Shown in pieces: positions 20,834-64,000 of a DNA stretch of 64,000 bases. The position numbers and the translations under genes are program-made. The notes under the pieces were generated by a model. The model was not told the DNA's origin. It saw only the letters and a program-made list of their open reading frames with translations, and did not search any database. Numbering within the stretch: the first letter of the stretch is position 1; every line of letters begins with the position of its first letter. Source of the stretch: Bolinopsis microptera (Eukaryota > Ctenophora > Tentaculata > Lobata > Bolinopsidae); assembly GCF_026151205.1 (NCBI RefSeq), contig NC_087074.1, positions 2,170,001-2,234,000 on the forward strand, in the 5' to 3' direction.

Positions 20834-23800
20834 TTAATCCCAAGACTGAAACCCCTGGTCGCTGGCGTCAGTGAAGTAGCAACCTGAGTCGCGGACCCTC
20901 AGGAGACTGTCCAAGAGTCGCATGAGATCCTTTCTGATTCGCAGACTGGTTAATCTGGTGGTAGGGTCCTTATCCCAGCACTCACTGGTTATCCGGGACA
21001 GTTCGATCAGAGTCTGGTGTTTAGACCACGAGTCTGGAATAGGGGGACGTTTGCCCGTGTCCACTACCACCGCTGACATCTCCTCAATGGTAGGGTCGCA
21101 AGGTACGTCGTGTTGGAAGGGGTACTGGTACGGTTCTGTCCCTGGACTGACCCTCTGTCCAATCTCCCAGGCAACCAGACCGAACATGTAAATATCTGCC
21201 TGCCTCAGGCTCTGAAACGAGCTGAGGTTTATTGAAGAGTCCAAGATTTCAGGTGCCATATACCGCCGTGTCCCCACTTGGAAGTGGAATTTCTTCTTGT
21301 CCGGTAAATTATCGAAGAAGTCTGACCGGGCGGCTAGCCCAAAGTCCGCTATACAGCACTGAGATCCCTGACCAACTGATTTAATGAGAATGTTTTTTGA
21401 CTTGATGTCTCTGTGAGCGATGCTGGGTTTAGCGACGCTGGATCTGATCTCGGTGTGCAGGTAGTCAAGCCCTGCTGCCAGCGACAGGATCATCTGTAAA
21501 CTATCCTGGAAGAGAACACATTTTTAGACATTTAGCAGTATACAAAAATAATAATCACATACTCATAATAAACGATTAAAAAGAGGAAACTAGAAACATC
21601 CCTCATACAAGGAGTGTTTGGGACCACGTGATGCCCAAATAAGGAGCGACTGGTTCAATTGGTGAACCTTACCTGAACTGTTAACTGAGCATCCTGAAGG
21701 AAATCGTAAAGGGAACCTCTAGGGTGGAAATTTAGGACTAAATAGTATTCCATGTTGGCAACACAGTCCCGCTGGTCTGCGCCTGAAACACCAACATTAA
21801 CGTAAAATAATAACCTAGTAAAAATTGTAATATTGTAATACTCCACTTCATTAAATTACGATCGTAATCATACGCCAAGGAATCAGTGTCAATGCATAAG
21901 CTCCGTATCGTAAGTTGAAGTTACCTATGAAGGAGAGGATGTTCTCGTGTCGGAGCCAGTAACTCTGGTACATCTCCGCCTCATGCCACCAGCTCGCCTC
22001 TTCTCTATTGCTAAACACTTTTACTGCTACCTGTACCGAACATGGAAGTGTAAGTTTGAGTGGTTAACTTTACCAAGTAACGGAGTAACATAATATGCAG
22101 TGTCAGTCACAGGCAGCAGATAATCCGTTAAGAGATTTACTTCTCGTCCACCGGTACGGGAACAAAATTGCAAAATTAAGTTAATATTTTACGTTCTTGA
22201 TAATGATAATGATAAATATAATATTAATAATTAATAGTTAATATAATAAGATATGATTAATAATTAATAATTAATATAATAAGATATAATTAAAAATAAA
22301 TAATTAATATGATAAGATATATATTGATAATTAATATAATAAGATATAACTAATAATTAATAATTAATAACTTTTCACGTACTTGCCCACCAGCTCTCCA
22401 ACGTCCACGCCAAACTTCTCCGTATCTGCCCTTCCCTATTCGTTCACAGAATGTAATCTCTCGGATCAGGGTCTTCTCTATAAGTCGGGGGTTACCCGAT
22501 CCACTGGAGCATGAAGTCGTGAAGTCTTGCGAAGGAACACTCTGAGGATGAGATGATGTTATACTCTGAGGATGAGATGATGTTATACTCTGAGGATGAG
22601 ATGATGTTATACTCTGAGGATGAGATGATGTTATACTCTGAGGATGAGATGATGTTATACTCTGAGGATGAGATGATGTTATACTCTGAGGATGAGATGA
22701 TGTTATACTCTGAGGATGAGATGATGTTATACTCTGAGGAAGAGATGATGTTATACTCTGAGGATGAGATGATGTTATACTCTGAGGATGAGATGATGTT
22801 ATACTCTGAGGATGAGATGATGTTATACTCTGAGGATGAGATGATGCTATACTCTGAGGATGAGATGATGTTATACTCTGAGGATATCACCGGATGTCAC
22901 ATCAAAATCGCATCAGTGCTGGATCATATGAGAGTTGTATGCAAGGTCACACAAACCTGCCAGTTTTGTGTAGACCCAGGTGTGATGTAGTGAGGTAGAG
23001 TTAAAGGAGTAACTAGAGAGTTGCTGACTAACACCTTCTCTCTATTGACTCTGCAGAACCGCAGCACTAACATCCCTCCCAACGTCATAGCTGAAACAAC
23101 ACGTGTTAGCACATGGTGACGTCATCAGTCATGACGTCATAATCAACAGATTAATTTCTATTCGAGTGTAGGTCTGAGCACTGTACGTGATTCTGCGATT
23201 GCAACTGTTTCATTAGACGAGCACGTGCACACACATGCACGTGCTCACACGATGCATGTATACTCAACACATCTTCATTAACCACAGCGTACGTTCTTCA
23301 GGCTAACTACCCTCAAATTATACACTTATTTTACGGGCTCAGCTGACGGTGTGAGATCCCCATTTAGCAGGGTGTAATAAAACTATCAGAGGTCTAATGA
23401 AGAAGTGGAGGGGCGGGTCGTAATTCGATACAACTCCTTCATAAACTGTTCTTCTGGCAATGGTACAGCTTTCACCAGCTTGTTAATTCGCACTACAATT
23501 ATTCAGCATAAATGTCATGAATATTCGCCCTGACTGCATAACTATGCATAAAATGTCGGCATAATTAGTGCGTTGTATTGAATATTCTTCGCACAAAAAG
23601 TGAGTCAAGACAGCGGACGGAGTACGGACGGACTGTGTAGGGCCAGGCTTGTTCAGGCTGCAAACTTATGGAGTGCCTAAATTTATCGTTGGCGTACTGC
23701 AGAATTGAACGTTAAAATACTGGGGTATTTAAAACACCCCATAATATTGCAGAGTCGTTAACATCCCATTATAAATCATCAGATATCATTTGAATTTGAT

Positions 23801-25567
23801 AATAGCCCCCGTGATCAGGCCCTATCATTATAATTTGAGTAGCCAGATGCTAGATTTAAAGGTGCGATGAAACCCGCTTGTTTCTAGTGCTAGGGAAAAA
23901 AGATAAAAATCAAATTGAAAAAATAATCAAAGAAATCGACTGTAGGACGTATTTAAATTGTGGGAACACTTAGCGAAACCGAAGAAAAAGTTTGTATTAT
24001 GATGAACGCAGAAGTAAGATATCAACAATGCAATAATTGTGTACCTATAAGATACAGACTACAGCTAAAACCACTTACCTATGATGAATACGAAGATGCC
24101 GACTATGTAAAGAGGGTAGGTGAGAGAGTTCTGAGGGTTCGGCTCGAACGCAGGGCCCCTCGGTGGGGGCATCTCCGGTCCTTTGGTGGGCGGGAAACTC
24201 TCAGAGGCAGTGGGCTCTTTGGTAAACCAGGTTATGTCGTTACAGAGGGCGAATTGGCAACACTGAGAGGGAAAAATCGTTAGTTTCATCACAGAAAGTT
24301 AAGTAGAACAAAGCACAATTTTTTATTTACAAAAAATGCAGAATTTCGTATATTGTTATGCTACAAGATAACATACCTGGTGTCCAATTTTAGTTACTCA
24401 TTAGTAACCATAGTTACTCACTAGTAACCATAGTTACTCACTAGTAACCATAGTGATAAGATAACATACCTGGTGTCCAATGTTGTTCTCTTGTTCAGCA
24501 CAGAAGAAGAAACTCTCGTTGATGTGAGTGCAGCCTCGAGCGGTGACTTCGTACACTCCTCTTCTGTCCGGGTCACGTGACTCCTCAGCTAGATAGAAAC
24601 AGGAGCCCGACTCTGCAGTGCAGGTCCCGCTGTCATCTGTACAGTACTCTGCAGTACACCTGGACAATGTGTTAATAACTTGTTCTGTAAAGAAACCAAC
24701 AGTTATTGAGTCCTTCATTAGTTACCATAGTTACTCGCTAGTAACCATAGTTACTCGCTAGTAACCATTGTTACTCGCTAGTAACCATAGTTACTCGCTA
24801 GTAACCATAGTTACTCGCTAGTAACCATAGTTACTCACTAGTAACCATAGCTACTCACTAGTAACCATAGCTACTCACTAGTAACCATAGTTACTCACTA
24901 GTAACCATAGTTACTCACTAGTAACCATAGTTACTCACTAGTAACCATAGTTACTCACTAGTAACCATAGCTACTCACTAGTAACCATAGCTACTCACTA
25001 GTAACCATAGCTACTCACTAGTAACCATAGTTACTCACTAGTAACCATAGTTACTCACTAGTAACCATAGTTACTCACTAGTAACCATAGTTACTCACTA
25101 GTAACCATAGTTACTCACAAGTAACCATAGTTACTCACTAGTAACCATAGTTACTCACTAGTAACCATAGTTACTCACTAGTAACCATAGTTACTCACTA
25201 GTAACCATAGTTACTCACTAGTAACCATAGTTACTCACTAGTAACCATAGTTACTCACTAGTAACCATAGTTACTCACTAGTAAAGAAACCAACAGTACC
25301 TTTATTAATTCCTTCATTGAAGTAGTAGTTGTACAGCAATACTAATAATACAATACTAATTGATAATATAGCAATACTAAGGTAATGAAACCTAAACCCT
25401 GTACATTAAAAACATGTTATTACATACATTATACACCTGTATAACCTACACTAGCTTCTCACTCACTTGCATTCAATAGGGACGATCGTGTCTTCATCAG
25501 AGATGAATCTGGCTAGCACAGAATAGCATAGCAGGGGTAGGAGGTACAGTGGTGCGGATCTAACCAT
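20834..25567 (-). CDS. Type I TGF-beta/activin/BMP-family receptor serine/threonine kinase (ALK-like)
   Basis: Eight exons on the minus strand: 25467-25567 (signal peptide, [19 protein letters not shown]), 24470-24659, 24079-24262, 22957-23090, exon 5 ending at 22383, 21925-22032, 21673-21782 and 20834-21505. The Cys-rich ectodomain closes with CCQFALCND, the CC-x4-CN signature of the family. A transmembrane segment ([15 protein letters not shown]) spans the exon 3/4 junction. A GS-type box ([11 protein letters not shown]) precedes the kinase. The kinase has [46 protein letters not shown] and [11 protein letters not shown], and type I receptors share the GT(K/R)RYMAPE and GS box. Binding of a TGF-beta-type ligand would bring a type II receptor to phosphorylate the GS box, and the kinase would then phosphorylate R-Smads. 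The L45 loop ([15 protein letters not shown]) is unusual, so the Smad class cannot be assigned. The exon 5 acceptor lies in a 24-bp tandem array (22541-22886). Exon 6 carries a run of six A (minus strand) where the frame needs four or seven, exactly at the VAVK lysine. With the shortest exon 5 and that run corrected, the protein is about 551 residues. Confidence 0.92.
22541..22886 (-). repeat. 24-bp array carrying 15 in-frame splice acceptors of kinase exon 5
   Basis: 14 units. On the minus strand each reads CATCATCTCATCCTCAG and then AGTATAA, so each ends in a pyrimidine-rich CAG that can act as an acceptor. Exon 4 ends in phase 0, and the codon after every CAG is AGT in the frame of the GS box. 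The first possible acceptor puts the exon start at 22877 and the last at 22541, exactly 336 bp apart. Read as exon, the unit encodes SITSSHPQ with no stop. Two units carry single-base changes (SLPQ, SIAS) and stay open. Confidence 0.9.
23117..23139. promoter_or_regulatory. Two perfect TGACGTCA (CRE/ATF-type) palindromes
   Basis: TGACGTCA occurs at 23117-23124 and 23132-23139 in kinase intron 3, just upstream of exon 4. This octamer is the consensus for CREB/ATF bZIP dimers. Function here is inference. Confidence 0.4.
24367..24480 (-). repeat. Duplicated donor junction of kinase exon 2
   Basis: On the minus strand the true junction ATTGGACACCAG|GTATGTTAT (exon end 24470) is repeated about 100 bp downstream in the intron, at about 24367-24390, again as ATTGGACACCAG|GTATGTTAT. 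Between the copies lie three 20-bp GTTACTAGTGAGTAAC units. Either donor could be used. The downstream one would add about 100 nt. Confidence 0.85.
24718..25285. repeat. 20-bp minisatellite in kinase intron 1, about 28 copies
   Basis: Unit TTACTCACTAGTAACCATAG (one 20-mer). Each contains the inverted repeat GTTACT-CACT-AGTAAC. The minus-strand reading contains TAGTGAGTAAC, which includes GTGAGT, a consensus donor string. It lies between exon 1 and exon 2, and the same unit also appears next to the exon 2 donor. Confidence 0.95.
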
Positions 25568-25809
25568 TGTCTAAGATCATTATCACTGGAAAATAAATCA
25601 AAGATAATGCTTGCTTCATTATTGAAAATATAATGATGATTTAGTACTGATTATTATAGCTAGCGAAGTGAAATGAAGGAAAATAAACTAGCCTCTTAAT
25701 GAAGCCTGTAAACAATTGGGAAATTGTAAAAAATTCCACCACAATACGTTAAACTGTGTGGTGTTATAGTTCCAACCATGAATTGTCGTTTGATTTTATG
25801 CACAACGTT

Positions 25810-26505
25810 ATAGTACGTACTAGTACGTTATAGTACGTTCTAGTACGTTCTAGTACGTTCTAGTACGTTCCAGTACGTTATAGTACGTTATAGTACGTCC
25901 TAGTACGTTATAGTACGTTATAGTACGTCCTAGTACGTTCTAGTACGTACTAGTACGTTCTAGTAGTTCTAGTACGCTCTAGTACGTACTAGTATACGTT
26001 CTAGTACGATCTAGTACGATCTAGTACGTTCTAGTACGTTATAGTACGTTATAGTACGTTTTAGTACGTTCTAGTACGCTCTAGTACGTTCTAGTATGCT
26101 CTAGTACGTTCTAGTACGCTCTAGTACGTACTAGTACGTCCTAGTACGTTCTAGTACGTTCTAGTACGTTCTAGTACCTTCTAGTACGTTATAGTACATT
26201 ATAGTACGTTCTAGTACATTATAGTACGTTATAGTACGTTCTAGTACGTTCTAGTACGTTCTAGTACGTTCCAGTACGTTCTAGTACGTTAAAGTACGTT
26301 TTAGTACGTTCTAGTACCTTCTAGTACGTTATAGTACATTATAGTACGTTCTAGTACGTTCTAGTATGTTATAGTACGTCCTATTACGTCTTAGTACGTT
26401 CTAGTACGTCATATTACGTTTTAGTACGTTCTAGTACGTCCTATTACGTTTTAGTACGTTCTAGTACTTCCTATTACGTTTTAGTACGTTCTAGTACGTT
26501 AAAAC
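25810..26505. repeat. ~10-bp minisatellite (TAGTACGTTC family) upstream of the kinase gene
   Basis: About 68 units of consensus TAGTACGTTC with frequent changes in the last four bases (TTAT, TACT, CTCT, TCCT). The invariant part TAGTACG carries the palindromic GTAC. The array begins about 240 bp upstream of the kinase start codon. Confidence 0.95.
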
Positions 26506-27360: not shown

Positions 27361-27509
27361 TTACAACTGCAGTCAAATTGAAACAGTATTGAAGCTGTAA
27401 GAAAAGAGTGGTGTATTACAACTGCAGTCAAATTGAAACAGTATTGAAGCTGTAACAGACGAGTGGTGTATTACAACTGCAGTCAAATTGAAACAGTATT
27501 GAAGCTGTC
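27361..27509. repeat. Three ~55-bp direct repeats
   Basis: Three consecutive copies containing TTACAACTGCAGTCAAATTG and AAACAGTATTGAAGCTGT, with small differences at the right end of each copy. Confidence 0.9.
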
Positions 27510-27572
27510 GACAGGTCAAATTTGATAGCAATCAAGGAAACTTCAGACGGAATACATTTAAAAGAGACAGAT

Positions 27573-27745
27573 CTGGTAACCTTGACAACCTGGTAACCTT
27601 GACAACCTGGTAACCTTGACAACCTGGTAACCTTGACAACCTGGTAACCTTGACAACCTGGTAACCTTGACAACCTGGTAACCTTGACAACCTGGTAACC
27701 TTGACAACCTGGTAACCTTGACAACCTGGTAACCTTGACAACCTG
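27573..27745. repeat. 17-bp minisatellite, about 10 copies
   Basis: Unit CTGGTAACCTTGACAAC, nearly invariant. It contains the GGTAAC core shared by many arrays in this window. The real donor of receptor B exon 8 (CAG|GTAACCTT) has the same string. Confidence 0.95.
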
Positions 27746-28370: not shown

Positions 28371-28482
28371 GTTATTGGCTCAATTCTTTATCCACTTCTT
28401 TATCGTGAAGATATCGAAACAGTCAACAAGTCTCAATATAAACGCCGTGCCCAGGATCTGTGATGTTTTAACTAACGGACCT

Positions 28483-42700: not shown

Positions 42701-45700
42701 GCTCATTTTCATACACACCGTGTTGCTTATAAAACATCTCTGAGTGAAGACAACCGTAATAATAGTTTTTCTCGCTTTCATCAAAGCAAATATTTTTCAA
42801 AAACCCTCTTATTTTTGTTATGGTGCAATCTTCAGTTGGTTTCCTCCATTTCTCACTGTAGTCAACACAGGCTGAACAGGAGCAAGACTCAGTTGAATTC
42901 TCACAAACCCCAATATCACTGCAACAGGTTCTGTCTCCGTCAGGATCGCACCCAGTTAGATCAATATCAGTGTCAGAAAGAGGATAAAGGTCGCCACATT
43001 TTCCATCGTCTCTCCAACCCTTGCTTTGCTCTCCTATTGATGAGAGCTGTTGAATTTAATCAACTAACCAACGTTTAAGATAAAATTGATAAATGTAGGT
43101 TGGAATTGACATGAAGTTTTGTCCAAAATTTGTATCAATTTTAACTTTTAAGGTCAGTAAGCTTAAAGTTTTTTTACTCTTAGCTCGATTATACAATTTT
43201 TGCATTGAATTGAAGTGTTTCAGATGCAGTCGTCGCTGATTCAAGAACTTGAACAAGGCCGTAGCACCCAAGGTTGCAGTTTTTACCTGATCGATTGGTG
43301 CAGTGCAGCCAAACAACGTCCCTATTCCCACAGCTGGTTTCTACTGTCGTAGCATCACAGATGGATATTTCGGCATCATCCTCCGTGCATCTCACTTTGT
43401 CCATTAGTACGGGTAAACTACTGTTCCACTTACTGGAGGGGAAAAGGTATTACTTATACTGAAACGATAGGGTCTATCATCAAGTAATACACTTCCTGTT
43501 GAGATACGAATTTGTTCAGGAGCTACAGTTTTTCTAATAGACATGGTGGGAAGAATCTGTTGGAAAATAACTAGATGAAAAGATGAAGCTCACTTGATGG
43601 TGTGACTCGGTTCCATTCTCCGAATTCGTATCCAAGACGTCGACAAAATATATTTGCCGACAACCAGTTCAATTGATCTTTACATACAGTCCCAAACTGC
43701 TTCACTCCGTGCTGTTTGTGAACAAAAGTCACAGTTAATTGGCCTTGAAGTTCTGGCCGACTTGGTTTAACCTTTCCTCCGTGAGCTGGATTGGAAATTC
43801 CAACTCTTTCTAGGTCCCAAACATACTCTGAAATGTATATTATTTATACACAAAATGCACAAAATGCACAAAATGCACACAACGCACACAACGCACACAA
43901 TGCACACAGTGCACACAATGCACACAATGCACACAATGCACACAGTGCGAGAGTGTCTGTTTTGCATACAGTTTACAAAAAACATCACAGCTGGATAATG
44001 GATATTTCCATAATGTCTACTGCAGCTGTAACAGTCACAACTGTTTCTAACTACCTTATCGGACCTTATTTGGACGGACATTACTTGAACGCTGGAGGCC
44101 CTAGCGTTTATCTTAATGTCCGTTCAAATAAAGTCCGTTCAATTAATGTCCGTCCAAGTTAAAGTCCGTTGAAATTTTTTCAAATATTTTTCCATTTCGA
44201 ACTTTTTGTCCAGAATATGACAACTATGATAACTTTATTGTGCCGTAAGTTAACGACGGAAAGGTTCTCCTTGGTCTGCCGGAGGCACAGAAAACTCTAC
44301 TAGTATATGATGTTTTCAAGGGTCACTTGGCGGAAAAAGTCCACAAAATTATGGCACTCAACAACATAGTTCATGAGGTAGTCCCCGCCAACATGACAAA
44401 CTTGTTCCAGCCTCTAGATATTACGGTAAATCGTGTTGCCAAGGACATTGTCCGACATTGTTATAGTTCATATTACTGAGGGGAGGTAATGAAACAGTGC
44501 TAGGAAAGCTCCACGTGATGTTAAGGTTAACCTAATGTTGTCTAAGATAAAACCACTTCACGCCGAATGGCTTGTAAAAGTTAACACTGAAATGCAGGAC
44601 CGGGGTAGTTTGATAAAAAAGGTTTCCATAAAGCTAGAAATCACTGATGCTTGTTTAAGCATGGACTATTTCATGCACGAAAACTCATTTAATGAAGATG
44701 ATGTGATATTAGACACTGATCATGTACACATATTTTAACATGTTTACTGCTTAATTACTGCTTTTCTTACTTACTGTATAAAAAATGGATTTAAAAATAA
44801 TTTGCTGAAATGAAAAAACGTCAAAAATTTGAAAAAAATTCGGATTTTTGATGGTTTTGAATGCCTTCGAGCGTTCATATTAATGTCCGTTCATAATTAT
44901 GTCTGTTCATGTAATGTCCGTCCAAATAAGGTCCGATAAAGTATTCACGGTTCATATACACATCATTAGCTTAGAGACAAAGTGGGGACAAATTAGAAAA
45001 ATAGGAACTGTACCTATATAGTAGAAAAGTGGTGTTTTGCTCTTTTTTGGCACGAAATAGAACTTGTCTACTTGGCGCTTCCAGTATAAGCTTTCCCAGA
45101 TTTCACTGTATTGGGGATCATCGCAAATATGAGAGGAAACTGTGACATTGAGAACCACCTTACCGTTACAAAACACAACTATCCTGTAACCTCTCTTCTG
45201 TATCGTCCACACCTTATCACTTGTAGTAGGTACACTAACCGGGAAAGCCGTTAGGTTGCTACAATATGCGAGTTGATACTCCAGGCCTCTCCCTGCGAAC
45301 TTAATCATGATCCCGCCTGAGAACCTATTCATCTCCGGATCCTCGAATTTTATTACTGTTTTATCACCGCTCCCTAGTTTAGAAGAGGTCTTCAAGTGGA
45401 GGTTGATGGTATCTAGGTACACGTAAACGTAATCCTTAGCCTCTTCTTTCCTCACCGGTATCCAAAGGTCTGTTTAAAAGTGACGTTCAGATTCTTAAAA
45501 GCAAATCAAATTAAAGCACACGGAAAAACAGTCCATCAACAGTCCAGCAATTCGGACGAACCGTAAACGGACAGACTTTATTTGAACGAACACAAAAATA
45601 AACGCTATGGTCACCAGCGTCCACATAATGTCCGTTGAAGTAAAATCAGATAAAGTACATAAAAAAGTCATCATCTACCTGACTTATACAGCATATCATT

Positions 45701-48700
45701 TGAAAATAAACAAAGAAAGAGAAAAAATTATTACCGGATGAATTGTGCGTGCACGACAGCCAAACTGTGCTTTTGTGAGAGCAACTTTCTTTCGTTATTA
45801 TTGCATCACACTCAGACATGCTACGGGTATCATCCTTGCAGTTGTAGTGAAGTGTAGTAGGAACCACATTGGTTTCCAGCCATGTCCTGTATTAAAAACG
45901 CTGGTCAGGTTTTGTAGCAATCTAGCAAAGGGGAATTTGTTTCTCACGGTTGGAGATTACTAGGTTATACGTGTAGAGTTAACTAAATAAAGAATTCATC
46001 AATTAAGACTCTTACTCAGGAGCATGCTTGAAGGTGCCGTTCCGGTAACTACCCCATTTCCCAGTTTCGTATCCAAGGTAGCGACAGAAGAGGTGAGCTT
46101 TCCACCAGTCGAAACTGTTCGCACAGATGCTTCCAATCCATGTGTAACCATGTTCGTTAACAAATCTAACAATAAGCAACCCTTCATTCGAACTTATCAT
46201 CTCTGCACTATTATTCATTCTGATCAGTGAAGCATTCGCTGGAAAATGTGATGATTTATGAGATTGCTTTTAGTTTTACTCTAGATAAGTCAACGTTTGG
46301 CTGACACGTAAACAAACAAAACAAAATAAACAAAGTTTATTGGTCATCTTTTTTATTCTTCTGGAGGGGTGAAAATATCAAAAAATCTTTATTCGTTTCT
46401 CAAACATAATAAAATCTGACTCTTACGAAAATCATAGCAATGGAGCCATGATATGCTACTATGTTCACACTTCTTTTCCTGTACTCCATAGTTGCAATCA
46501 AATATGGTTCCATCGTCAGTTTTGCATCCTATTCCATCCATTTGAATAGGTTCTGTATTTTTATCCAGCCATATCCTGAGTTTTACATGGTGAATATGAT
46601 AAAACTTCATTGGTATCAATCAGAAACCTATCGCTTTTGGTATGCTAGGTTGAATTATATTATATTCTGGGTTATGCTAGGTTGAATTATATTATATTCT
46701 GGGTTATGTTAGGTTATATTATATTATATTCTGGATTATGCTAGGTTGAATTATATTATATTCTGGGTTATGCTAGGTTGAATTATATTATAATTATATA
46801 TTCAAATCATACCTGTAGTCGTATGTTGTGTTTTTTGGTTCTTTAATCCATTGTCCAGATTTGTATCCAAAATGCAGACAAAGCAACTCTGAAGCTTTTT
46901 CGTTAGAGCCACTGTTGCAAGCAGTCCCCATCTGCCTTATCCCACTTTTCTTATTGACAAAAGTTACAGTAAAGAAAATGTCAGGTCCAGTTTGAATGAT
47001 TGTTGAGTTGGGAGAAGGAGAGGGAGAGGGAGAAGGAGAGGAGAGAGGAGTTGAGGATTGTGTAGATCGATCCTATAAACCTCCCAGATGTTTTCTAAAA
47101 TGGTAGAAATGCTTTCGATTAGATATTTTTTGTTACAATATATTCAGTATTCATAATGAACAAATCGACGGAAAATTCTGAAAAACTTGCAAAACATAGT
47201 TTACTTACCTAAAAAATAATAAGTTTCTTCTTTGTTGTTTTTTGATCGATCAAATGACATTTTGACTGCTTTCCTTCCCCAAGACTCAGTGAAACTAACA
47301 TCAGTACATGTTTCAGAAGACGTAGTGAAGTCAAGGACTTGTTTACCATTACACGATACTTTCATTCTGTGCCCTCGCTTCTCTATACTCCAAAATATGC
47401 TATCTTCAATAATAGGTGTATATTGGTCAAAAGAGCGAGACTTTTCCATGCAATTGAAGAGTTTGTACGAAGGCTGTGACTTGAAATATATCGTAATACC
47501 ACCTGCAGCCTCATCTTCTTCATCAAAGTACCGATTTTCCAGTTTTTGGCCGTTGTATACTACAGTACCATTTCCATTGTTGAAGTGCAAAAAAGACGAT
47601 TCTAAATAAACGGGTACTCCTGAGTTTACACCGTAATCGTATCTGGTCCAGATCTCTGAAATTATTCGTCAAGATACTAATTACCTGGGACCCTAGGCTT
47701 ACTGTTTATAAAGATGTGTCGGAGCTCAGTCTGTCATTTGCGGAGTGACAGGCTGAGCTCCGCCCTGTAAGATACTAATTATATATTGGTAGGTTTGGTA
47801 ATGGTATTGATAAATGTCTACTGTTTCGCTGTACTGGATTTTGCACGAGCGTTCAATTGAGGATCAATTTCGGGGGATAAAATGCCTGAAAAAAGTAAGT
47901 TATAAAGTTTATAAGGCTGAAGGTTACCTGCTGAGTTCTCTTTGTCACAAAAGAGCCAAACATTTCTGCTATGATTACGGTTTTCTTTCACTATCACGAT
48001 GTCGCATTCAGAAATTGTACGTGCATTTACATTGCAATTGTAATCCAGGTCCATGGTGACCACGCTGTTCTTTAATAACCAAGACCTGAACCAAAGCAGT
48101 CATTTTCAAATCCCAAAGGAAAATCTGTTGGAAGGAATTTCTAATCCGGGAATTTCTATTCCGGAAATCGTGGCAAAAAATTGGCGTGAATTACAAATCG
48201 TGGCACTCACTCTTGCACGTATTTAAAGTTTTTCGGGTAACTGCCCCATTTCCCAGTTTTGTATCCAAGGTAACGACAAAAGAGGTTAGCTTTCCACCAG
48301 TCAAAACTGTTCGCAGAAATGCTCCCGTTCCTTTTGTCTCTATGCTCGTCGAGGAATGTAAGAATTAGCAAACCCTCGTTTCCTGTTCTCACTTCCGTTC
48401 TATCCCTCATACTTATCAGTGTGGCATTTGCTGAAATGTTATAGTCATACTCATCAGTGTGGCATTTGCTGAAATGTTATAGTCATACTTATCAGTGTGG
48501 CATTTGCTGAAATGTTATAGTCATACTCATCAGTGTGGCATTTGCTGAAATGTTTTATCTCTCATACTTATCAGTGTGACATTTGCTGAAATGTTAAAGT
48601 CATACTCATCAGTGTGGCATTTGCTGAAATGTTATAGTCATACTCATCAGTGTGGCATTTGCTGAAATGTTTTATCTCTCATACTTATCAGTGTGGCATT

Positions 48701-51700
48701 TGCTGAAATGTTAAAGTCATACTCATCAGTGTGACATTTGCTGAAATGTTATAGTCATACTTATCAGTGTGGCATTTGCTGAAATGTTATAGTCATACTC
48801 ATCAGTGTGGCATTTGCTGAAATGTTATAGTCATACTCATCAGTGTGGCATTTGCTGAAATGTTTTATCTCTCATACTTATCAGTGTGACATTTGCTGAA
48901 ATGTTTTATCTCTCATACTTATCAGTGTGACATTTGCTGAAATGTTCTATCCCTCATACTTATCAGTGTGGCATTTGCTGAAATGTTAAAGTCATACTCA
49001 TCAGTGTGACATTTGCTGAAATGTTATAGTCATACTTATCAGTGTGGCATTTGCTGAAATGTTATAGTCATACTCATCAGTGTGGCATTTGCTGAAATGT
49101 TATAGTCATACTTATCAGTGTGGCATTTGCTGAAATGTTCTATCCCTCATACTTATCAGTGTGGCATTTGCTGAAATGTTAAAGTCATACTCATCAGTGT
49201 GACATTTGCTGAAATGTTATAGTCATACTTATCAGTGTGGCATTTGCTGAAATGTTATAGTCATACTCATCAGTGTGGCATTTGCTGAAATGTTATAGTC
49301 ATACTTATCAGTGTGGCATTTGCTGAAATGTTATAGTCATACTCATCAGTGTGACATTTGCTGAAATGTTATAGTCATACTTATCAGTGTGGCATTTGCT
49401 GAAATGTTATAGTCATACTTATCAGTGTGGCATTTGCTGAAATGTTATAGTCATACTCATCAGTGTGGCATTTGCTGAAATGTTTTATCTCTCATACTTA
49501 TCAGTGTGACATTTGCTGAAATGTTTTTTTGCTGGCGGATTTTATTTTTGTTTAGTTTTGAATTCATCACAATTGTAAGATTGCATAATTTTGAAAATGC
49601 ACTTTTATGTTATTAAACTATTACAGAAAGTGATGCATAGAATTTTTAAATACTGGCGAAGTTTTTTTCCTACTTTATAGTTGTATATGCAACTCATAAA
49701 TTATTATAAAAAACAAATCTTACGAAAGTCATTGCAACGGAGCCACGTGATGATATCATAGTCGCATCTCTGCTCTCGTACCCCGTATTCACATTCAGAT
49801 ATGGTCTGATCGTCTGGCCGACACCTCATTCCGTCCATTTGAATAGGTCCTGTGTTGTTTTCCAGCCACAATCTACGGGTTTTATATTATATAAAGGCAA
49901 ACAAATTTTACTGGTAAAGTGATATTGGACTTAGCTGGATGTTAAGAAGGGTCGGAAAGGGTTACCCAGGAATGCCCGGTAGGGGTCTGTGGAGTGTTAC
50001 CTAGGGGTGCTGGTAAGTAGGGTAACTTAGTTACCAACACCCCTAGTTACCAGCACCCCTAGTTACCAGCACCTCTAGTTACCAGGTACATTAGTTACCA
50101 ACACCCCTAGTTACCAGGTAACTAGCATGACTGACGGATAACCTTCAAAGCTTTATTATAATCATTAAAATATATCACCTGATGTTATAGTCTATTTTTT
50201 CTGGCTTTCTTTCCCATTGACCAGATTGGTATCCGAAATGCTTGCAGAGCAAGTTTGCAGCTTCTCCATTTAGATCGTTGATACAGGCAGTTCCTACTTG
50301 ATCCATTCCACTGTGTCTATTAATAAACGTAACTGTGATAAGGCCATTAGCTCCAGGTCGGATTTTTGTGGAGTTTACTGGATAGAGATTTTGTAGTTCA
50401 AATTCTTTAAATTCCCAGACATCTTCTGAAAGTTTGAAATAGCGAAAAGTCTAATATTGGATTATAATATAATAAATATAATCTATTACGTATTACTTAT
50501 TATTAAAATGTTCATAACATTGATCCAGTTAACGACTTAGGAGCTACAAAATAAAAACCATTTATGCACCAAAATGATATAAATTTGGTACCAAAATGAT
50601 ATATAGTTGGTAACAAAATGATATATATGGTTGGTAACAAAATGATATAAAGTTGGTACCAAAATGATATAAAGTTGGTTCTTCGTTTTTCTTGGACCGA
50701 TCAAATTTCATCTCGACGACGTTGCTCCCCCAGGAAAGGGCATTCCACTTTTTATCATTGCATGTTTTAGAAGACGCTGTGACGTCAAGTACTGCCACCC
50801 CGTTGCAGGACACAGCAATTCTCATTCCTCGTTTCTCAATACTCCACAGTCTGTGTAACTCCGTGGGTACACGCGTATCGAAAGGGCGTGACTTTTTCAT
50901 ACACTTGTCCAACTTATATTTGCTTTTAGACTCAAAGAATATAGTGATTCCACTAACAAATTCGTTACTTTCATTAAAGAATCGAATTTCTAGTTTTTTC
51001 CCACTGTCCACTGCGATGCTTGTTTTTACGTGTAAGTAACATGCTTCCAGAAAAACAGGAATGAAAGGTTTTTTCTTGAAATCGTAGCTCGTCCAGATCT
51101 CTGTAAAATACAGTACTATTGCTGTTGTGTTGTAAAATGTAAGGTACTACTGTAAGGTACTACTGTAAGGTACTACTGTAAGGTACTACTGTAAGGTACT
51201 ACTGTAAGGTACTACTGTAAAGTGTAAGGTACTACTGTAAGATACTACTGTAAGGTACTACTGTAAGGTACTACTGTAAGGTACTACTGTAAGGTACTAC
51301 TGTAAGGTACTACTGTAAGGTTCTACTGTAAGGTACTACTGTAAGGTACTACTGTAAGGTACTACTGTAAGGTACTACTGTAAGGTACTACTGTAAGGTA
51401 CTACTGTAAGGTACTACTGTAAGGTACTACTGCAAGGTACTACTGTAAGGTACTACTGTAAGGTACTACTGTAAGGTACTACTGCAAGGTACTACTGTAA
51501 GGTACTACTGCAAGGTACTACTGTAAGGTACTACTGTAAGGTACTACTGTAAGGTACTACTGTAAGGTACTACTGTAAGGTACTACTGTAAGGTACTACT
51601 GTAAGGTACTACTGTAAGGTACTACTGTAAGGTACTACTGTAAGGTACTACTGTAAGGTACTACTGTAAGGTACTACTGTAAGGTACTACTGCAAGGTAC

Positions 51701-53399
51701 TACTGTAAGGTACTACTGTAAGGTACTACTGTAAGGTACTACTGCAAGGTACTACTGTAAGGTACTACTGCAAGGTACTACTGTAAGGTACTACTGTAAG
51801 GTACTACTGTAAGGTACTACTGTAAGGTACTACTGTAAGGTACTACTGTAAGGTACTACTGTAAGGTACTACTGTAAGGTACTACTGTAAGGTACTACTG
51901 TAAGGTACTACTGTAAGGTACTACTGTAAGGTACTACTGTAAGGTACTACTGTAAAGTGTAAGGTACTACTGTAAGGTACTACTGTAAGGTACTACTGTA
52001 AGGTACTACTGTAAGGTACTACTGTAAGGTACTACTGTAAGGTACTACTGTAAGGTACTACTGTAAGGTACTACTGTAAGGTACTACTGTAAGGTACTAC
52101 TGTAAGGTACTACTGTAAGGTACTACTGTAAGGTACTACTGTAAGGTACTACTGTAAGGTACTACTGTAAGGTACTACTGTAAGGAACTACTGTAAGGTA
52201 CTACTGTAAGGTACTACTGTAAGGTACTACTGTAAGGTTCTACTGTAAGGTACTACTGTAAGGTACTACTGTAAGGTAGGACTTGGCTCTACGAACTCAA
52301 ATTATCCTTTTCATGTGTTTCTCTACTAGATAAAAAGAGCCTCACGCCGACAAACAAAGAGTTAAATAATTTATTAAAAAGGATTACAGACCCTGATCAT
52401 TAGTAAAGATATAAAAACAACCTGAACTGTTTTTGGAGCAAGCCAGCCAGACATTGTTGCGGTGAGAGCAATTCTCTCTCGCCATCTTAAAGTTACACTT
52501 AAACAAACTCTCGGCACTCTTTATACAATCGTCCAGCTTCGTAGGAAACAAGTTGTTTTTCAACCATGTTCTGGAGGAAATTCAAACATTACGTGTTTAT
52601 AGTAAACGATATCACTGTAAGCATCACACTGTAAGCATTATACTGTAAGCATTACACTGTTAGAACTGTAAGCATCACACTGAGTATTATACTGTAAGCA
52701 CTGTAAGCACTGTAAGCATTATACTGTAAGCATTACACTGTAAGCACTGTAAGCATTACGCTATTGTCGCAACGAATACTAACTTACTAAACTTAAATCA
52801 GATTTGAGTTGGAAGACACTTAGTGACTTACTCAGAAACATATTTGAAGTTTCCAGGGTAACTGCCCCATTTGCCGGTTTCGTATCCAAGATGGTGACAA
52901 AAGAGGTTCGCTTTCCACCAGCTGAAATTACTCGCACAAATGCTGCCATTCTTTTTGTCACCATTTTCACTAGAGAGGCTGATCATCAATACGCCTTTAT
53001 TTCCTTTCACTATCTCATGGTCGCCAGACTCCTCAATCAATGCAACTTCGGTCAACTTCCAATCTGGAAATCAATTTTTTAATTAAATACTTTTAAAATT
53101 TTACAGAGTACAACAATAAATGATGGATATACAATATACATTGAATATATTATATTGAAACTATGTGCTTTTCAATCTTCAGAGTTCAACTGGTCACAGT
53201 AACAGATGCTTATAAAAACGTATCGTATAATTTATGTTTTAAGAATATAAGTAATATTGATGTTTTGATTCATTAAAAACTGAACCACTAACAACTATCA
53301 ATCTGAAGTTAACTCACCCACATCCACCCACTCGCCCCTAACAGCATGGCAGCATAGAAACAGAAGTTTGAAAATCAGGAGGCTTGTAGCGAATCCCAT
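39778..53399 (-). CDS. Receptor B: three SRCR-U-SRCR modules, hevein-like and LDLa repeats, and a C-terminal 7TM
   Basis: Seventeen exons on the minus strand: 53318-53399 (signal peptide, MGFATSLLIFKLLFLCC), 52832-53063, 52422-52570, 50660-51100, 50179-50425, 49724-49872, 48211-48430, 47928-48085, 47209-47655, 46813-47094, 46427-46575, 46016-46238, 45735-45886, 45014-45469, 43594-43827, 43287-43432 and 39778-43033. Each SRCR is split by a phase-2 intron after its first half (for example WWKANLFCHHLGYETGKWGS). The modules meet at phase 1. U domains sit at exons 4, 9 and 14. The terminal exon starts with a Cys-rich segment (CDPDGDRTCCSDIGVC, hevein-like spacing), then LDLa units (WCDGVYNCPDGSDE, CDLVNDCGDLSDEEHC), then 7TM with FFCWVPF and NSVINPLLYDN. 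From CTIT-x3-RGFLKN onward it matches receptor A. I infer a ~2,340-residue cell-surface receptor binding an extracellular ligand through SRCR and U domains. Breaks: frame shifts near 42641 and 41360, one base off in exon 10, and a one-base phase conflict at exons 15/16. If real, these would disable the gene. The split into one gene rather than two rests on phase continuity and on comparison with receptor A. Confidence 0.78.
43846..43947. repeat. ~9-bp microsatellite (CACAATGCA) in a receptor B intron
   Basis: Eleven or so copies of ACAAAATGC, ACAACGCAC and ACAATGCAC type lie just upstream (in gene sense) of the SRCR exon at 43594-43827. Confidence 0.9.
44059..44936 (+). mobile_element. Pogo-like DNA transposon remnant with 26-29-bp perfect terminal inverted repeats
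   Basis: The left end (44056-44084, TTATCGGACCTTATTTGGAC...) is the exact reverse complement of 44911-44939, and a TA sits at each outer border, as expected for Tc1/mariner/pogo insertion. Inside, 44267-44480 reads LLVYDVFKGHL and VVPANMTNLFQPLDITVN, matching the DDE region of pogo/Tigger transposases (xxFDxFxGH, VPANxTxxLQPLDxxVN). A downstream frame (from 44535) has KIKPLHAEWLVK, also typical. The N-terminal DNA-binding region and most of the catalytic core are missing and stops intervene, so this copy is not autonomous. It sits in the receptor B intron between exons 14 and 15. Confidence 0.8.
45540..45656. mobile_element. Diverged solo end of the same pogo-like element
   Basis: Read on the minus strand, this matches about the first 110 bp of the element at 44059, including GGACATTA, GAACGCTGG-like, TAGCGTTTAT and GTTCAAATAAAGTC, with many substitutions. 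It lies in the adjacent receptor B intron, so the family has inserted at least twice here. Confidence 0.65.
46625..46795. repeat. ~33-bp intronic repeat, about 5 copies
   Basis: Units contain TATGCTAGGTTGAATTATAT and TATATTCTGGGT. One unit is a shortened variant. It lies in the phase-2 intron inside the fourth SRCR domain of receptor B. Confidence 0.9.
47005..47055 (-). repeat. CT-rich microsatellite inside SRCR exon 10 of receptor B
   Basis: On the minus strand a run of CTCTC/CTTCTCC replaces the short linker seen in the paralogous exon at 50179-50425. The exon is 282 nt (0 mod 3), while the other well-behaved SRCR first-half exons (232, 247, 220, 223 nt) are 1 mod 3. The reading frame before the tract therefore does not match the SRCR frame after it. 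Confidence 0.8.
47720..47762. repeat. 17-bp-arm hairpin in a receptor B intron
   Basis: CGGAGCTCAGTCTGTCA at 47720-47736 pairs with 47746-47762 with one mismatch across a 9-base loop. Confidence 0.75.
48421..49525 (-). repeat. 38-bp array made of the acceptor and first codons of SRCR exon 7
   Basis: On the minus strand each unit reads AACATTTCAG|CAAATGCC followed by ACACTGAT(A/G)AGTATGA. That is the end of the intron plus the first ~24 nt of the exon whose true start is 48430. About 29 copies are present. Some copies extend further into exon sequence (GAGGGATAGAAC or GAGAGATAAAAC), marking them as older or longer duplications. 38 bp is not a multiple of 3, so upstream acceptors would change the frame. 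Confidence 0.9.
49995..50125. repeat. ~22-bp GTTACCAG/CACCCCTA intronic repeats
   Basis: Five or six irregular copies of AGTTACCAGCACCCCT and variants in the intron inside SRCR domain 2 of receptor B. They share the GTTACC core. Confidence 0.85.
50575..50690 (-). repeat. ~22-bp array of U-domain exon 4 donor junctions
   Basis: On the minus strand the exon end and donor, TTATATCATTTTG|GTACCAA, occur five times in succession. The junction base pairs vary: GTACC (true, 50660), TTACC, TTACC, GTACC and GTGCA. The last copy ends the array near 50575. Confidence 0.85.
51135..52275 (-). repeat. 13-bp minisatellite (AAGGTACTACTGT), about 87 copies
   Basis: Nearly invariant. It fills the intron just upstream (gene sense) of the U-domain exon at 50660-51100. 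On the minus strand each unit contains CCTTACAG, similar to the real acceptor TATTTTACAG of that exon. A block with CTGCAAGG variants appears twice in the same spacing, so part of the array was itself duplicated. Confidence 0.95.
52610..52760. repeat. Irregular ACTGTAAGCATTA repeats
   Basis: About 11 copies of CACTGTAAGCATTA and shorter forms in the intron that splits SRCR domain 1 of receptor B. Confidence 0.85.
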
Positions 53400-57838: not shown

Positions 57839-60800
57839 TCATCGACTGTCCATATGTAAGTCAATTATCTGAAAAATTGCATATTTAAGAGCAGGAACTA
57901 AAAATGAGAAAATGATTAATATTAAAATTTCGTTTGTATAACGATCAAATCATGTCTCACCTGACAGACTGCCATATCTCACCTGACTGACTGCCATGTC
58001 TCACCTGACTGACTGCCATATCTCACCTGACTGACTGCCATGTCTCACCTGACTGACTGCCATATCTCACCTGACTGACTGCCATGTCTCACCTGACTGA
58101 CTGCCATGTCTCACCTGACTGACTGCCATGTCTCAACTAACTGACTGCCATATCTCACCTGACTGACTGCCATATCTCACCTGACTGACTGCCATGTCTC
58201 ACCTGACTGACCGCAGTGTCTCAACTGACTGACTGCCATATCTCACCTGACTGACTGCCATATCTCACCTGACTGACTGCCATGTCTCACCTGACTGACT
58301 GCCATGTCTCACCTGACTGACTGCCATGTCTCACCTGACTGACTGCCATGTCTCACCTGACTGACTGCCATATCTCACCTGACTGACTGCCATATCTCAC
58401 CTGACTGACTGCCATATCTCACCTGACTGACTGCCATGTCTCACCTGACTGACTGCCATGTCTCACCTGACTGACTGCCATGTCTCACCTGACTGACTGC
58501 CATGTCTCACCTGACTGACTGCCATGTCTCACCTGACTGACTGCCATGTCTCACCTGACTGACTGCCATGTCTCACCTGACTGACTGCCATGTCTCACCT
58601 GACTGACTGCCATGTCTCACCTGACTGACTGCCATGTCTCACCTGACTGACTGCCATGTCTCACCTGACTGACTGCCATATCTCACCTGACTGACTGCCA
58701 TGTCTCACCTGACTGACTGCCATGTCTCACCTGACTGACTGCCATATCTCACCTGACTGACTGCCATGTCTCACCTGACTGACTGCCATGTCTCACCTGA
58801 CTGACTGCCATGTCTCACCTGACTGACTGCCATGTCTCACCTGACTGACTGCCATGTCTCACCTGACTGACTGCCATGTCTCACCTGACTGACTGCCATA
58901 TCTCACCTGACTGACTGCCATGTCTCACCTGACTGACTGCCATGTCTCACCTGACTGACTGCCATATCTCACCTGACTGACTGCCATATCTCACCTGACT
59001 GACTGCCATATCTCACCTGACTGACTGCCATGTCTCACCTGACTGACTGCCATGTCTCACCTGACTGACTGCCATGTCTCACCTGACTGACTGCCATGTC
59101 TCAACTAACTGACTGCCATGTCTCAACTAACTGACTGCCATGTCTCACCTGACTGACTGCCATATCTCACCTGACTGACTGCCATGTCTCACCTGACTGA
59201 CTGCCATGTCTCACCTGACTGACTGCCATGTCTCACCTGACTGACTGCCATGTCTCACCTGACTGACTGCCATGTCTCACCTGACTGACTGCCATGTCTC
59301 ACCTGACTGACTGCCATATCTCACCTGACTGACTGCCATGTCTCACCTGACTGACTGCCATGTCTCACCTGACTGACTGCCATGTCTCACCTGACTGACT
59401 GCCATGTCTCACCTGACTGACTGCCATGTCTCACCTGACTGACTGCCATGTCTCACCTGACTGACTGCCATGTCTCACCTGACTGACTGCCATGTCTCAC
59501 CTGACTGACTGCCATGTCTCACCTGACTGACTGCCATGTCTCACCTGACTGACTGCCATGTCTCACCTGACTGACTGCCATGTCTCACCTGACTGACTGC
59601 CATGTCTCACCTGACTGACTGCCATATCTCACCTGACTGACTGCCATGTCTCACCTGACTGACTGCCATATCTCACCTGACTGACTGCCATGTCTCACCT
59701 GACTGACTGCCATGTCTCACCTGACTGACTGCCATGTCTCACCTGACTGACTGCCATGTCTCACCTGACTGACTGCCATGTCTCACCTGACTGACTGCCA
59801 TGTCTCACCTGACTGACTGCCATGTCTCACCTGACTGACTGCCATGTCTCACCTGACTGACTGCCATGTCTCACCTGACTGACTGCCATGTCTCACCTGA
59901 CTGACTGCCATATCTCACCTGACTGACTGCCATGTCTCACCTGACTGCCATGTCTCACCTGACTGACTGCCATGTCTCACCTGACTGACTGCCATGTCTC
60001 ACCTGACTGACTGCCATGTCTCACCTGACTGACTGCCATGTCTCACCTAACTGACTGCCATGTCTCACCTGACTGACTGCCATGTCTCACCTGACTGACT
60101 GCCATGTCTCACCTGACTGACTGCCATGTCTCACCTGACTGACTGCCATGTCTCACCTGACTGACTGCCATGTCTCACCTGACTGACTGCCATGTCTCAC
60201 CTGACTGACTGCCATATCTCACCTGACTGACTGCCATGTCTCACCTGACTGACTGCCATGTCTCACCTGACTGACTGCCATGTCTCACCTGACTGACTGC
60301 CATGTCTCACCTGACTGACTGCCATATCTCACCTGACTGACTGCCATGTCTCACCTGACTGACTGCCATGTCTCACCTGACTGACTGCCATGTCTCACCT
60401 GACTGACTGCCATGTCTCACCTGACTGACTGCCATGTCTCACCTGACTGACTGCCATGTCTCACCTGACTGACTGCCATGTCTCACCTGACTGACTGCCA
60501 TGTCTCACCTGACTGACTGCCATGTCTCACCTGACTGACTGCCATGTCTCACCTGACTGACTGCCATGTCTCACCTGACTGACTGCCATGTCTCACCTGA
60601 CTGACTGCCATGTCTCACCTGACTGACTGCCATGTCTCACCTGACTGACTGCCATGTCTCACCTGACTGACTGCCATGTCTCACCTGACTGACTGCCATG
60701 TCTCACCTGACTGACTGCCATATCTCACCTGACTGACTGCCATGTCTCACCTGACTGACTGCCATGTCTCACCTGACTGACTGCCATGTCTCACCTGACT

Positions 60801-63455
60801 GACTGCCATGTCTCACCTGACTGACTGCCATGTCTCACCTGACTGACTGCCATGTCTCACCTGACTGACTGCCATGTCTCACCTGACTGACTGCCATGTC
60901 TCACCTGACTGACTGCCATGTCTCACCTGACTGACTGCCATGTCTCACCTGACTGACTGCCATGTCTCACCTGACTGACTGCCATGTCTCACCTGACTGA
61001 CTGCCATGTCTCACCTGACTGACTGCCATGTCTCACCTGACTGACTGCCATGTCTCACCTGACTGACTGCCATGTCTCACCTGACTGACTGCCATGTCTC
61101 ACCTGACTGACTGCCATGTCTCACCTGACTGACTGCCATGTCTCACCTGACTGACTGCCATATCTCACCTGACTGCCATGTCTCACCTGACTGACTGCCA
61201 TGTCTCACCTGACTGACTGCCATGTCTCACCTGACTGACTGCCATGTCTCACCTGACTGACTGCCATGTCTCACCTGACTGACTGCCATGTCTCACCTGA
61301 CTGACTGCCATGTCTCACCTGACTGACTGCCATGTCTCACCTAACTGACTGCCATATCTCACCTGACTGACTGCCATATCTCACCTGACTGACTGCCATG
61401 TCTCACCTGACTGACTGCCATGTCTCACCTGACTGACTGCCATGTCTCACCTGACTGACTGCATGTCTCACCTGACTGCCATATCTCACCTGACTGACTG
61501 CCATGTCTCACCTGACTGACTGCCATGTCGTCTTCATAGTCGGGGGCTCTGGTTTTGATGGCGACGTCCTGCATCGCATCAGTAATAGTCTCCAGTAAGA
61601 GATCATCTTTTTTATAGCACGGGTCAACAGACATGTTGAGCTGAAGATGGTTGTATCAGCTGTTTTAGTATTACTTACTTGTTACTTGTTAGTTACGCAT
61701 AAACAAAGCAATTTTTTAAGTGTAAACCAATTCTAAAAACAAAACATAACCCATTAAAAAGAAACCTCGAGAGTAGGTTTCCTAAGTAGAGACACGTGAT
61801 GCCCATATAAGGAGAAAACAAACCTCGAGAGCTGAAGGTTGCTCGACGGAACCTTGTCCGCTCTCAATGACACACAAACCGTTGATAGCCTCACTGTTGT
61901 GTATAGTGTCGGTTCTGAGGGGCGTGCTGTGCAATTCCATATCATCGTATATATTGTCTGCGTGGTGGGAATCCTCCGACACAACTGAGTGCGATACAGG
62001 GTGAGAGACACGTGATGCACATATAAGGAGAGGGATACAAACTGCAGAACTAGTAGAGACACGTGATGCCCATATAAGGAGAGGGATACAAACTGAGAGG
62101 TGGAGATATAAACCTGTTTGATTAGCTAGTCACCATAGTTACACTGCTAGTTACCTGTTTGATCAGCAAGTATAGAAGAACTAGCGTTGTTGAGAGAAGA
62201 GGGTAGCACGTGAACAGTTCTAAAACAGAACTGCGGTCCCATCCATAGGCATCTGTGGGGTGCTTCGTAAGTCTGTATCTCCACATAGCTCACCCAACCC
62301 TCATCCTTCTTACAAAGTTCTTCATCTTCCGCTTCTATCTCTGAAATAGTGCGGATTTGATATAACAGGTCAAATTCAGAAGGTTTGATGTATTATGATT
62401 ATTCTGAGATTTAGTAAGACTCTTTTCCTGACTTTGTATTATCGCTAACTTGAGAGCCCCCCCCCCCCCCTTAACTTGAGAGTAGAGTTACCCTGTTAGA
62501 GAGAAGATGAGAGCCCCCCCCCCACTATTAACTTGAGAGTAGAGTTACCCTGTTCAGAGTGAAGATGAGAGCCCCCCCCCCCCTACTTGAGACTTGAGAG
62601 TAGAGTTACCCTGTTCAGAGAGAAGATGAGAGCCCCCCCCCCCCCCCCTTAACTTGAGAGTAGAGTTACCCTGTTCAGAGAGAAGATGAGAGCCCCCCCC
62701 CCCTTAACTTGAGAGTAGAGTTACCCTGTTCAGAGTGAAGATGAGAGCCCCCCCCCCCTCTCTTAACTTGAGAGTAGAGTTACCCTGTTCAGAGAGAAGA
62801 TGAGAGCCCCCCCCCCCCCACTATTAACTTGAGAGTAGAGTTACCCTGTTCAGAGAGAAGATGAGAGCCCCCCCCCCTTAACTTGAGAGTAGAGTTACCC
62901 TGTTCAGAGAGAAGATGAGAGCCCCCTACCCTTAACTTGAGACTTTGAGAGTAGAGTTACCCTGTTGAGAGAGAAGATGAGAGCCCCCCCCCTCCCCCTT
63001 AACTTGAGAGTAGAGTTACCCTGTTCAGAGAGAAGATGAGAGCCCCCCCCCCTTAACTTGAGAGTAGAGTTACCCTGTTGAGAGAGAAGATGAGAGCCCC
63101 CCCCCCCCCCCTTTAACTTGAGAGTAGAGTTACCCTGTCGAGAGAGAAGATGGGAGCCCCCCCCCCCCCCCCTTAACTTGAGAGTAGAGTTACCCTGTTG
63201 AGAGAGAAGATGAGAGCCCCCCCCCCCCTAACTTGAGAGTAGAGTTACCCTGTTCAGAGAGAAGATGAATGTCCTTGAACTGAAGAACAGGCTCACTCCG
63301 AGTGCTCCTCCCTAAGTTCCACTGTATAGAGGGGGTGGCTGTAAGCTGTATCGGAGCATCGTCAGCCGGGATCACTCCCGTCAAAACACAGCAGTCGAAC
63401 TTATACTCCACCAACACACCTCCAGGTCCCAACACGAACAAGGACTCACTCCTCA
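57839..63455 (-). CDS. BCAS3: BCAS3 homologue, C-terminal exons only (runs off the right edge)
   Basis: Five exons on the minus strand: 63249-63455 (phase 1 in, phase 1 out), 62155-62340, 61824-61984, 61512-61640 and the last coding exon 57839-57868 (IIDLHMDSR, stop). All phases agree. The first exon reads SLFVLGPGGVLVEYKF and then TATPSIQWNLGRS. The second reads GWVSYVEIQTYEAPHR and LWMGPQFCFRTVH. These match the C-terminal part of BCAS3, where vertebrate proteins carry a VEI-TH-GPHRRLWMGPQF-FKT block. A later LLETITDAMQDVA resembles the LADAM segment near the vertebrate C-terminus. BCAS3 is a WD40-like beta-propeller protein linked to cytoskeleton, cell migration and phosphoinositide binding at autophagic membranes. 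The N-terminal propeller lies outside the window. Three of the splice junctions seen here are each tandemly amplified into arrays, and the last intron (57869-61511) is almost entirely one such array. Confidence 0.85.
57958..61528 (-). repeat. 22-bp array of a BCAS3 donor junction, about 160 copies
   Basis: On the minus strand the unit is ACATGGCAGTCAGTCAG|GTG plus AG. It is the last 17 nt of exon 61512-61640 (ACATGGCAGTCAGTCAG, encoding MAVSQ) plus the first five intron bases. Every unit therefore contains a consensus donor CAG|GTGAG. The main variant is CATGTC versus CATATC (plus strand), and a few units are 18 bp or have CTAACTGAC. The array fills about 98% of the intron. Confidence 0.97.
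62455..63262 (-). repeat. ~57-bp array of another BCAS3 donor junction with poly(C) runs, about 14 copies
   Basis: On the minus strand each unit has CATCTTCTCTCTGAACAGG|GTAACTCTACTCTCAAGTTA and then a run of 8-17 G. The exon 63249-63455 ends ATTCATCTTCTCTCTGAACAGG and is followed by the same intron sequence. So every unit is a copy of the exon end and donor. The homopolymer length varies between units. Confidence 0.95.
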
Positions 63456-64000
63456 CTGGGGGAGATATGAGTTATTATATAGTTACTATGGTTACTATAT
63501 TTACTATTATATTTACTATGGTTACTATGGTTACTATGGTTACTATGGAACTTATACTCCACCAACACACCTCCAGGTCCCAACACGAACAAGGACTCAC
63601 TCCTCACTGGGGGAGATGTGAGTTATTATATAGTTACTATGGTTACTATGGTTACTATGGTTACTATGGAACTTATACTCCACCAACACACCTCCGGGTC
63701 CCAACACGAACAAGGACTCACTTCTCACTGGGGGAGATGTGAGTTATTATATAGTTACTATGGTTACTATATTTACTATTATATTTACTATGGTTACTAT
63801 GGTTACTATGGTTACTATGGAACTTATACTCCACCAACACACCTCCAGGTCCCAACACGAACAAGGACTCACTCCTCACTGGGGGAGATGTGAGTTATTA
63901 TATAGTTACTATGGTTATTATGGTTACTATGGTTACTATGGAACTTATACTCCACCAACACCCCCCGGGTCCTAACACGAACAAGGACTCACTCCTTACT
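63456..64000 (-). repeat. Array of the BCAS3 exon 5' end with its acceptor, at least 4 copies, continuing past the edge
   Basis: On the minus strand each unit (about 130-150 bp) has TCTCCCCCAG|TGAGGAG, then the first ~59 nt of the exon at 63249-63455, then a variable (CATAGTAAC)n block and TATATAATAACTCACA. The true exon begins at 63455. Copies start near 63605, 63735 and 63885, with the next at the window edge. Confidence 0.93.

Follow-up and report, generated by a model that had tools for sequence, protein, structure and literature searches.

A 64,000-bp stretch of DNA from the lobate ctenophore Bolinopsis microptera (C3:2170001-2234000, here called the window) contains tandem arrays whose units carry the exon-intron boundary of the adjacent exon. 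This raises the question of whether some process in this genome preferentially amplifies splice sites, as the initial annotation of the window proposed, or whether ordinary minisatellites run across splice junctions by chance. The published genome of this species is described as an assembly of 13 chromosomes and 265 Mb (PMC11797021), and also as 13 chromosome-scale scaffolds (PMC10232365).

Three genes, all on the reverse strand, were modelled with a total of 54 splice junctions (27 donors and 27 acceptors); introns here are short, with a median of about 270 bp. The TGF-beta type I receptor-like kinase gene (20834..25567) has an in-frame open reading frame of 551 residues in eight exons, E1 to E4 at 25567-25467, 24659-24470, 24262-24079 and 23090-22957, and E5 to E8 at 22541-22383, 22030-21925, 21782-21673 and 21505-20834. 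An SRCR/'U'-domain receptor, termed receptor B, comprises exons R1 to R16 (43034..53399), with R17 starting at 43033. Exons R1 to R9 are open in frame over 708 residues, and no homologue of them scored among 3,914 candidate proteins. By eye, a five-exon cassette encoding SRCR and 'U' occurs three times (R2-R6, R7-R11 and R12-R16). The large LDLa/7TM exon of this gene (39781-43055) is split over three reading frames, interrupted near 42650 and 41370; the interruptions represent either assembly indels or a pseudogene. The third gene is BCAS3, with exons X1 (63455-63249), X2 (62340-62155), X3 (61984-61824) and X4 (61640-61512), all in agreement with the annotated protein discussed below, and a last exon starting at 57868.

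All seven junction arrays listed in the initial annotation were found by Tandem Repeats Finder (TRF) combined with a search for junction copies, in which the 22-mer across a junction had to recur within 5 kb with at most 5 mismatches. Exactly these seven of the 54 junctions have local copies, namely the donors of E2, R4, X1 and X4 and the acceptors of E5, R7 and X1, confirming that both splice-site types are hit (four donors and three acceptors in the window). Every array lies on the reverse strand, and in the units below a slash marks the splice junction. The E5 acceptor array (22539..22885, boundary 22542/22541, registered by TRF) has 14.5 copies of the 24-bp unit ATAACATCATCTCATCCTCAG/AGT, which includes 3 nt of the exon. 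This array is open in frame and reads SITSSHPQ per unit, and it could turn into a coding repeat through an acceptor shift; the repeat is absent from the kinase protein P0001, described below. At the E2 donor (24365..24481, boundary 24470/24469), two copies of ATTGGACACCAG/GTATGTTATCTT lie 93 bp apart, the second with 0 mismatches over 22 nt. A 20-bp array (24391-24454) occupies the space between them, and TRF does not register this two-copy duplication as junction-spanning.

In receptor B, the R7 acceptor array (48407..49526, boundary 48431/48430, TRF) contains 29 copies of a 38-bp unit, ACATTTCAG/CAAATGCC..., with an exon share of 24 nt, and the R4 donor array (50568..50679, boundary 50660/50659, TRF) contains five copies of the 22-bp unit TTTATATCATTTTG/GTACCAAC, two inner copies of which have lost the GT. 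The largest array is that of the BCAS3 X4 donor (57951..61529, boundary 61512/61511, TRF), where 163 copies of the 22-bp unit GCAGTCAGTCAG/GTGAGACATG account for 3,561 bp of the 3,643-bp intron. The X1 donor array (62451..63268, boundary 63249/63248, TRF) has 14 copies of a unit of about 60 bp, CTGAACAGG/GTAACT.... The X1 acceptor array (63397..64000, boundary 63456/63455, TRF) is built of 121- and 151-bp sub-units in a 272-bp superunit, carries the acceptor and the first 59 exon nt in five extra copies, and runs past the window end to window-equivalent 64172. The BCAS3 donors X2 (62090-62180) and X3 (61750-61840) each have one degenerate second copy, below the detection threshold of the 22-mer junction test, and their copies are separated by a fragment belonging to the GTAACTAG family or to the CACGTG motif. 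At the E2, X2 and X3 donors, whose junction copies have filler between them, an insertion that duplicated its target site may have been involved.

Further junction arrays were found beyond the window. Upstream in BCAS3, acceptor arrays occur at window-equivalent 70154 (69-bp unit, 15 copies) and 68563 (68 bp, six copies) and a donor array at 66787 (63 bp, 20 copies), which brings this gene to six. On its upstream side, the modelled BCAS3 segment directly adjoins a 54-bp array with a 162-bp higher-order unit and a length of nearly 10 kb (window-equivalent 73199-83006). One kinesin gene on C13 has both a junction-spanning donor array (38 bp, two copies) and an acceptor array (21 bp, 24 copies), and therefore the phenomenon is not restricted to the window.

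Protein records show where the exons end. P0001, the translation of an open reading frame in a contig of 1,880 bp, agrees with the spliced kinase in 550 of 551 residues; because it is spliced although the kinase gene spans 4.7 kb, the contig must presumably be a transcript. The exon-proximal copy is used in P0001 at the E2 donor and at the E5 acceptor, in the latter case despite an E5 array that could be translated in frame. P0121, the annotated B. microptera BCAS3 protein, matches all 659 modelled residues and extends beyond the model by an N-terminus and two internal stretches of 10 and 33 residues. It shows the exon-proximal copy at the X1 acceptor, the X1 and X4 donors, the 70154 and 68563 acceptors and the 66787 donor. 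The initial annotation was right that the units hold real exon-intron boundaries: the modelled exon ends are borne out by protein records at eight of the ten array-bearing junctions now known in the three genes, all eight in the kinase and BCAS3, the remaining two being R4 and R7 of receptor B. Judged from these records, regular splicing appears undisturbed and the authentic copy in use at the eight junctions. The X4 donor provides a natural experiment on splice-site choice, as the recorded protein ends at the first of 163 near-identical 5' sites.

The order of events can be approached through related sequences. Exon R12, which is paralogous to R7, has the same boundary and 19 of 24 identical exon bases without an array, and for R9 and R14, paralogous to R4, the 22-mer junction test found no donor copies. 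A further protein, P0122, is 60% identical to the BCAS3 studied here; since the next hit reaches 33%, we took P0122 to be the protein of another ctenophore, which is its probable origin. It retains EDDMAVSQ/II at X4, LFVLGPG.VLVEY at X1 and VVTIVDC at the 68563 exon, and related residues occur also at the 70154 exon. By these comparisons, the exonic part of several array units is old coding sequence, so that the arrays formed from existing junctions and not the reverse. The opposite order, whereby a minisatellite with a chance AG or GT captured splicing and the exon ends shifted into the array, would suit the E5 array with its minimal extension of 3 nt into an exon and its open frame, but the exonic parts of the R7, R4, X1 acceptor, X4 and 68563 acceptor units are common to a paralogous exon or to P0122, and we regard this order as quite improbable. 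Even less probable is a function of the extra copies in splicing regulation or as back-up sites. Many inner copies do keep their GT or AG (158 of 162 at X4 and 27 of 27 at R7, with 1 of 3 at R4), but when whole units were compared with the copies' own consensus, these signals proved as changeable as other pairs of adjacent bases (P=0.65), in a framing that is poor for two arrays, the 70154 acceptor (2 copies recovered) and the 66787 donor (consensus 'GG' at the signal). A seemingly better conservation of the inner GT/AG (6/500 versus 275/6232 mismatches) was lost in this whole-unit test, and both P0001 and P0121 show the proximal site only. The inner signals are neither purged nor specially kept, consistent with the earlier suggestion that the copies are splicing-neutral. 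Long arrays often have wrong copy numbers in assemblies, and one could thus suspect repeats collapsed or expanded in the draft. However, the copies vary (the 162 extra ones at X4 fall into 10 distinct forms, the 13 at the X1 donor into 11), and the genes stay in frame when spliced over the arrays, which makes an assembly artefact extremely improbable.

The remaining issue is whether junctions are preferred. In the window, 22-mers with a local copy number 0/54 at 60 nt inside the exon, 8/54 at the junction, 15/54 at 50 nt and 20/54 at 100 nt into the intron, and reach 59% among random intronic 22-mers. Within exons, 0/54 are copied at each step from -60 to -110 nt, 1/54 at -120 nt and 4/54 at -50 nt; since exon-interior copies are nearly absent, the junction copies are not chance matches. 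Copy frequency climbs from exon to intron without a peak at the 54 window junctions. Coverage alone was dropped as a junction test because big arrays dominate it. In the per-array seed null, each array was collapsed to one unit and placed at random in the collapsed introns, and the chance of straddling a junction was computed. Six of 18 arrays in the window span a junction, compared with 3.45 expected (P=0.095). With the rest of BCAS3 added, 9 of 26 do so against an expectation of 4.27 (P=0.012; observed/expected ratio 2.1, 95% CI 0.96-4.0), this set having been chosen for such arrays, so that the comparison is post hoc; requiring at least 6 nt on each side in the same set gives 8/26 versus 3.23 (P=0.006).

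An independent set was built from adjacent exons elsewhere that matched the motor domains of myosins and kinesins, with introns solved by frame, GT/AG and profile position. It comprises 67 introns kept of 76 tried, with 134 junctions and 58 arrays; 5/37 myosin and 4/39 kinesin exon pairs with no, a poor or an ambiguous splice solution were dropped, pairs with a profile gap above 14 were left out, and the C11 myosin stretch (L031) supplied no adjacent pair that entered the set. The kinesins represent 13 of about 22 gene clusters, partly picked for compactness, which favours array-poor introns. Dynein AAA_9 was unusable as a test set, as 9/30 matches each run through almost the entire domain without leaving a single open frame. 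In the small and partly compact myosin and kinesin sample, 2 of 58 arrays span a junction where 2.04 are expected from random seeding, i.e. there is no excess; with the 6-nt threshold the expectation is 1.28 (P=0.37), and for these genes outside the window the observed/expected ratio has an upper 95% limit of 3.5. When all sets are pooled, 11 arrays span a junction versus 6.31 expected (Poisson P=0.057). In the myosin and kinesin genes, copies were found for 9-11 of 134 22-mers at 10-40 nt into the intron and for 5/100, 4/90 and 3/80 at 80-100 nt, and the higher rate at 10-40 nt was counted against the chance reading.

These results bear on a process tied to splicing or transcription, such as R-loop breaks, AG/GT slippage or reverse-splicing-like copying, that would preferentially amplify boundaries. 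Such a process would account for the excess in the window genes and the rest of BCAS3 at both thresholds, for six junction arrays in BCAS3 alone and for the involvement of both donors and acceptors. It is rather unlikely, however, given the missing junction peak and the agreement with random expectation outside the window. Moreover, reverse splicing predicts breakpoints at the junction, whereas the exon overhangs span 0.12-0.91 of the unit and fit a uniform distribution (KS p=0.45, with low power at n=10). The amplifying process put forward in the initial annotation is thus not upheld, and the enrichment of arrays at junctions over random placement, which it expected, is seen post hoc in the window genes and is lacking in the small myosin and kinesin sample. 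A moderate junction preference, or a regional one, may exist.

The region itself is rich in arrays. They make up 37% of a 93-kb block containing the window, versus 1-35% (mean about 10%) in ten 4-kb samples along C3 and 1-30% in ten blocks around myosin genes. In 32 introns of the genes studied, arrays hold 59% of the bases, which shows minisatellites to be one of the chief reasons why these introns have grown. Minisatellites of differing period share a common core, GTAACCA / GGTTAC, with examples at 24391, 24715, 27573, 37803, 56717, 63478 and other positions, and also at C3:11.06 Mb and C9:11.99 Mb. GTAACCA occurs in 10/181 arrays, compared with 0.8 expected from single-copy sequence, and joined units of this family such as TAGTTACCATGGTAACTA are palindromic. 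The core was rejected as a seed of the junction arrays, as by eye 8/10 junction units are without it. A 21-bp motif, TCCTTATATGGGCATCACGTG, was searched with 3 mismatches allowed and has 6 copies within 41 kb of the window (21625, 30284, 34395, 61793, 62009 and 62060; up to 2 mismatches); it was not found in about 270 kb of other sequence.

Combined, the most probable explanation, to which we give a probability of about 0.7, is that these arrays are 'mirages', a term from amphioxus, produced by ordinary tandem duplication in short, minisatellite-rich introns and tolerated since one exon-proximal site stays intact. A local tandem duplication would have its breakpoints by chance on both sides of a splice junction, and slippage or unequal exchange would then multiply the unit, up to the copy number of X4. 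In short and minisatellite-dense introns, a random unit of 20-150 bp should straddle a junction fairly often. Purifying selection may spare such an array, as the original exon end and splice site survive in the exon-proximal copy. The nearest site is probably favoured by exon definition, while the remaining copies would become intron, be spliced out and drift neutrally. A variant in which transcribed splice junctions are the preferred starting points of duplication in Bolinopsis, for instance at co-transcriptional R-loops or stalled spliceosomes, seems unlikely to us; if true, junction amplification would be a distinct mutational process by which introns swell inwards from the exon edge, perhaps in other mirage genomes as well.

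Among the titles and abstract openings listed, which are weak evidence on this point, no ctenophore report of junction arrays appeared. Two known systems resemble the Bolinopsis arrays in part. Intron gain from tandem arrays or internal duplications (Zhuo 2007; Gao & Lynch 2009, both as cited in PMC3087553) likewise involves tandem copies with splice signals. In that model the array makes a new intron between its own copies, whereas in Bolinopsis the array stops short of the opposite splice site, by 82 bp for the X4 acceptor, 71 bp for the E5 donor and 198 bp for the R7 donor, and therefore these three introns were not made by this route. In human genes, minisatellites are also described as expanding over exon boundaries, as internal tandem repeats reported to lengthen or alter exons and introns (PMC2812944); in contrast, the Bolinopsis protein records show unaltered exons.

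The closest counterpart is found in amphioxus, where the phenomenon that the initial annotation took to be nameless is already called 'mirages' (PMC3087553; PMC3902484). They were first reported by Canestro 2002, as cited in these two papers, and are described in Adh3 and the globins BflGb6 and BflGb9 (PMC3087553) as well as in PGBD5 and TnC (PMC3902484); for the Adh3 mirage, length polymorphism or somatic instability is reported. As in Bolinopsis, the amphioxus unit is described as combining exon and intron sequence of the adjacent real junction, with both 5' and 3' sites hit. The Bolinopsis arrays differ in their ctenophore host, in reaching 163 copies that nearly fill an intron, and in the presence of six in one gene. 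Mirages are known from amphioxus in the literature found, and a ctenophore stands far off on the animal tree; this comparison suggests that mirages can arise repeatedly in any genome with short introns rich in minisatellites.
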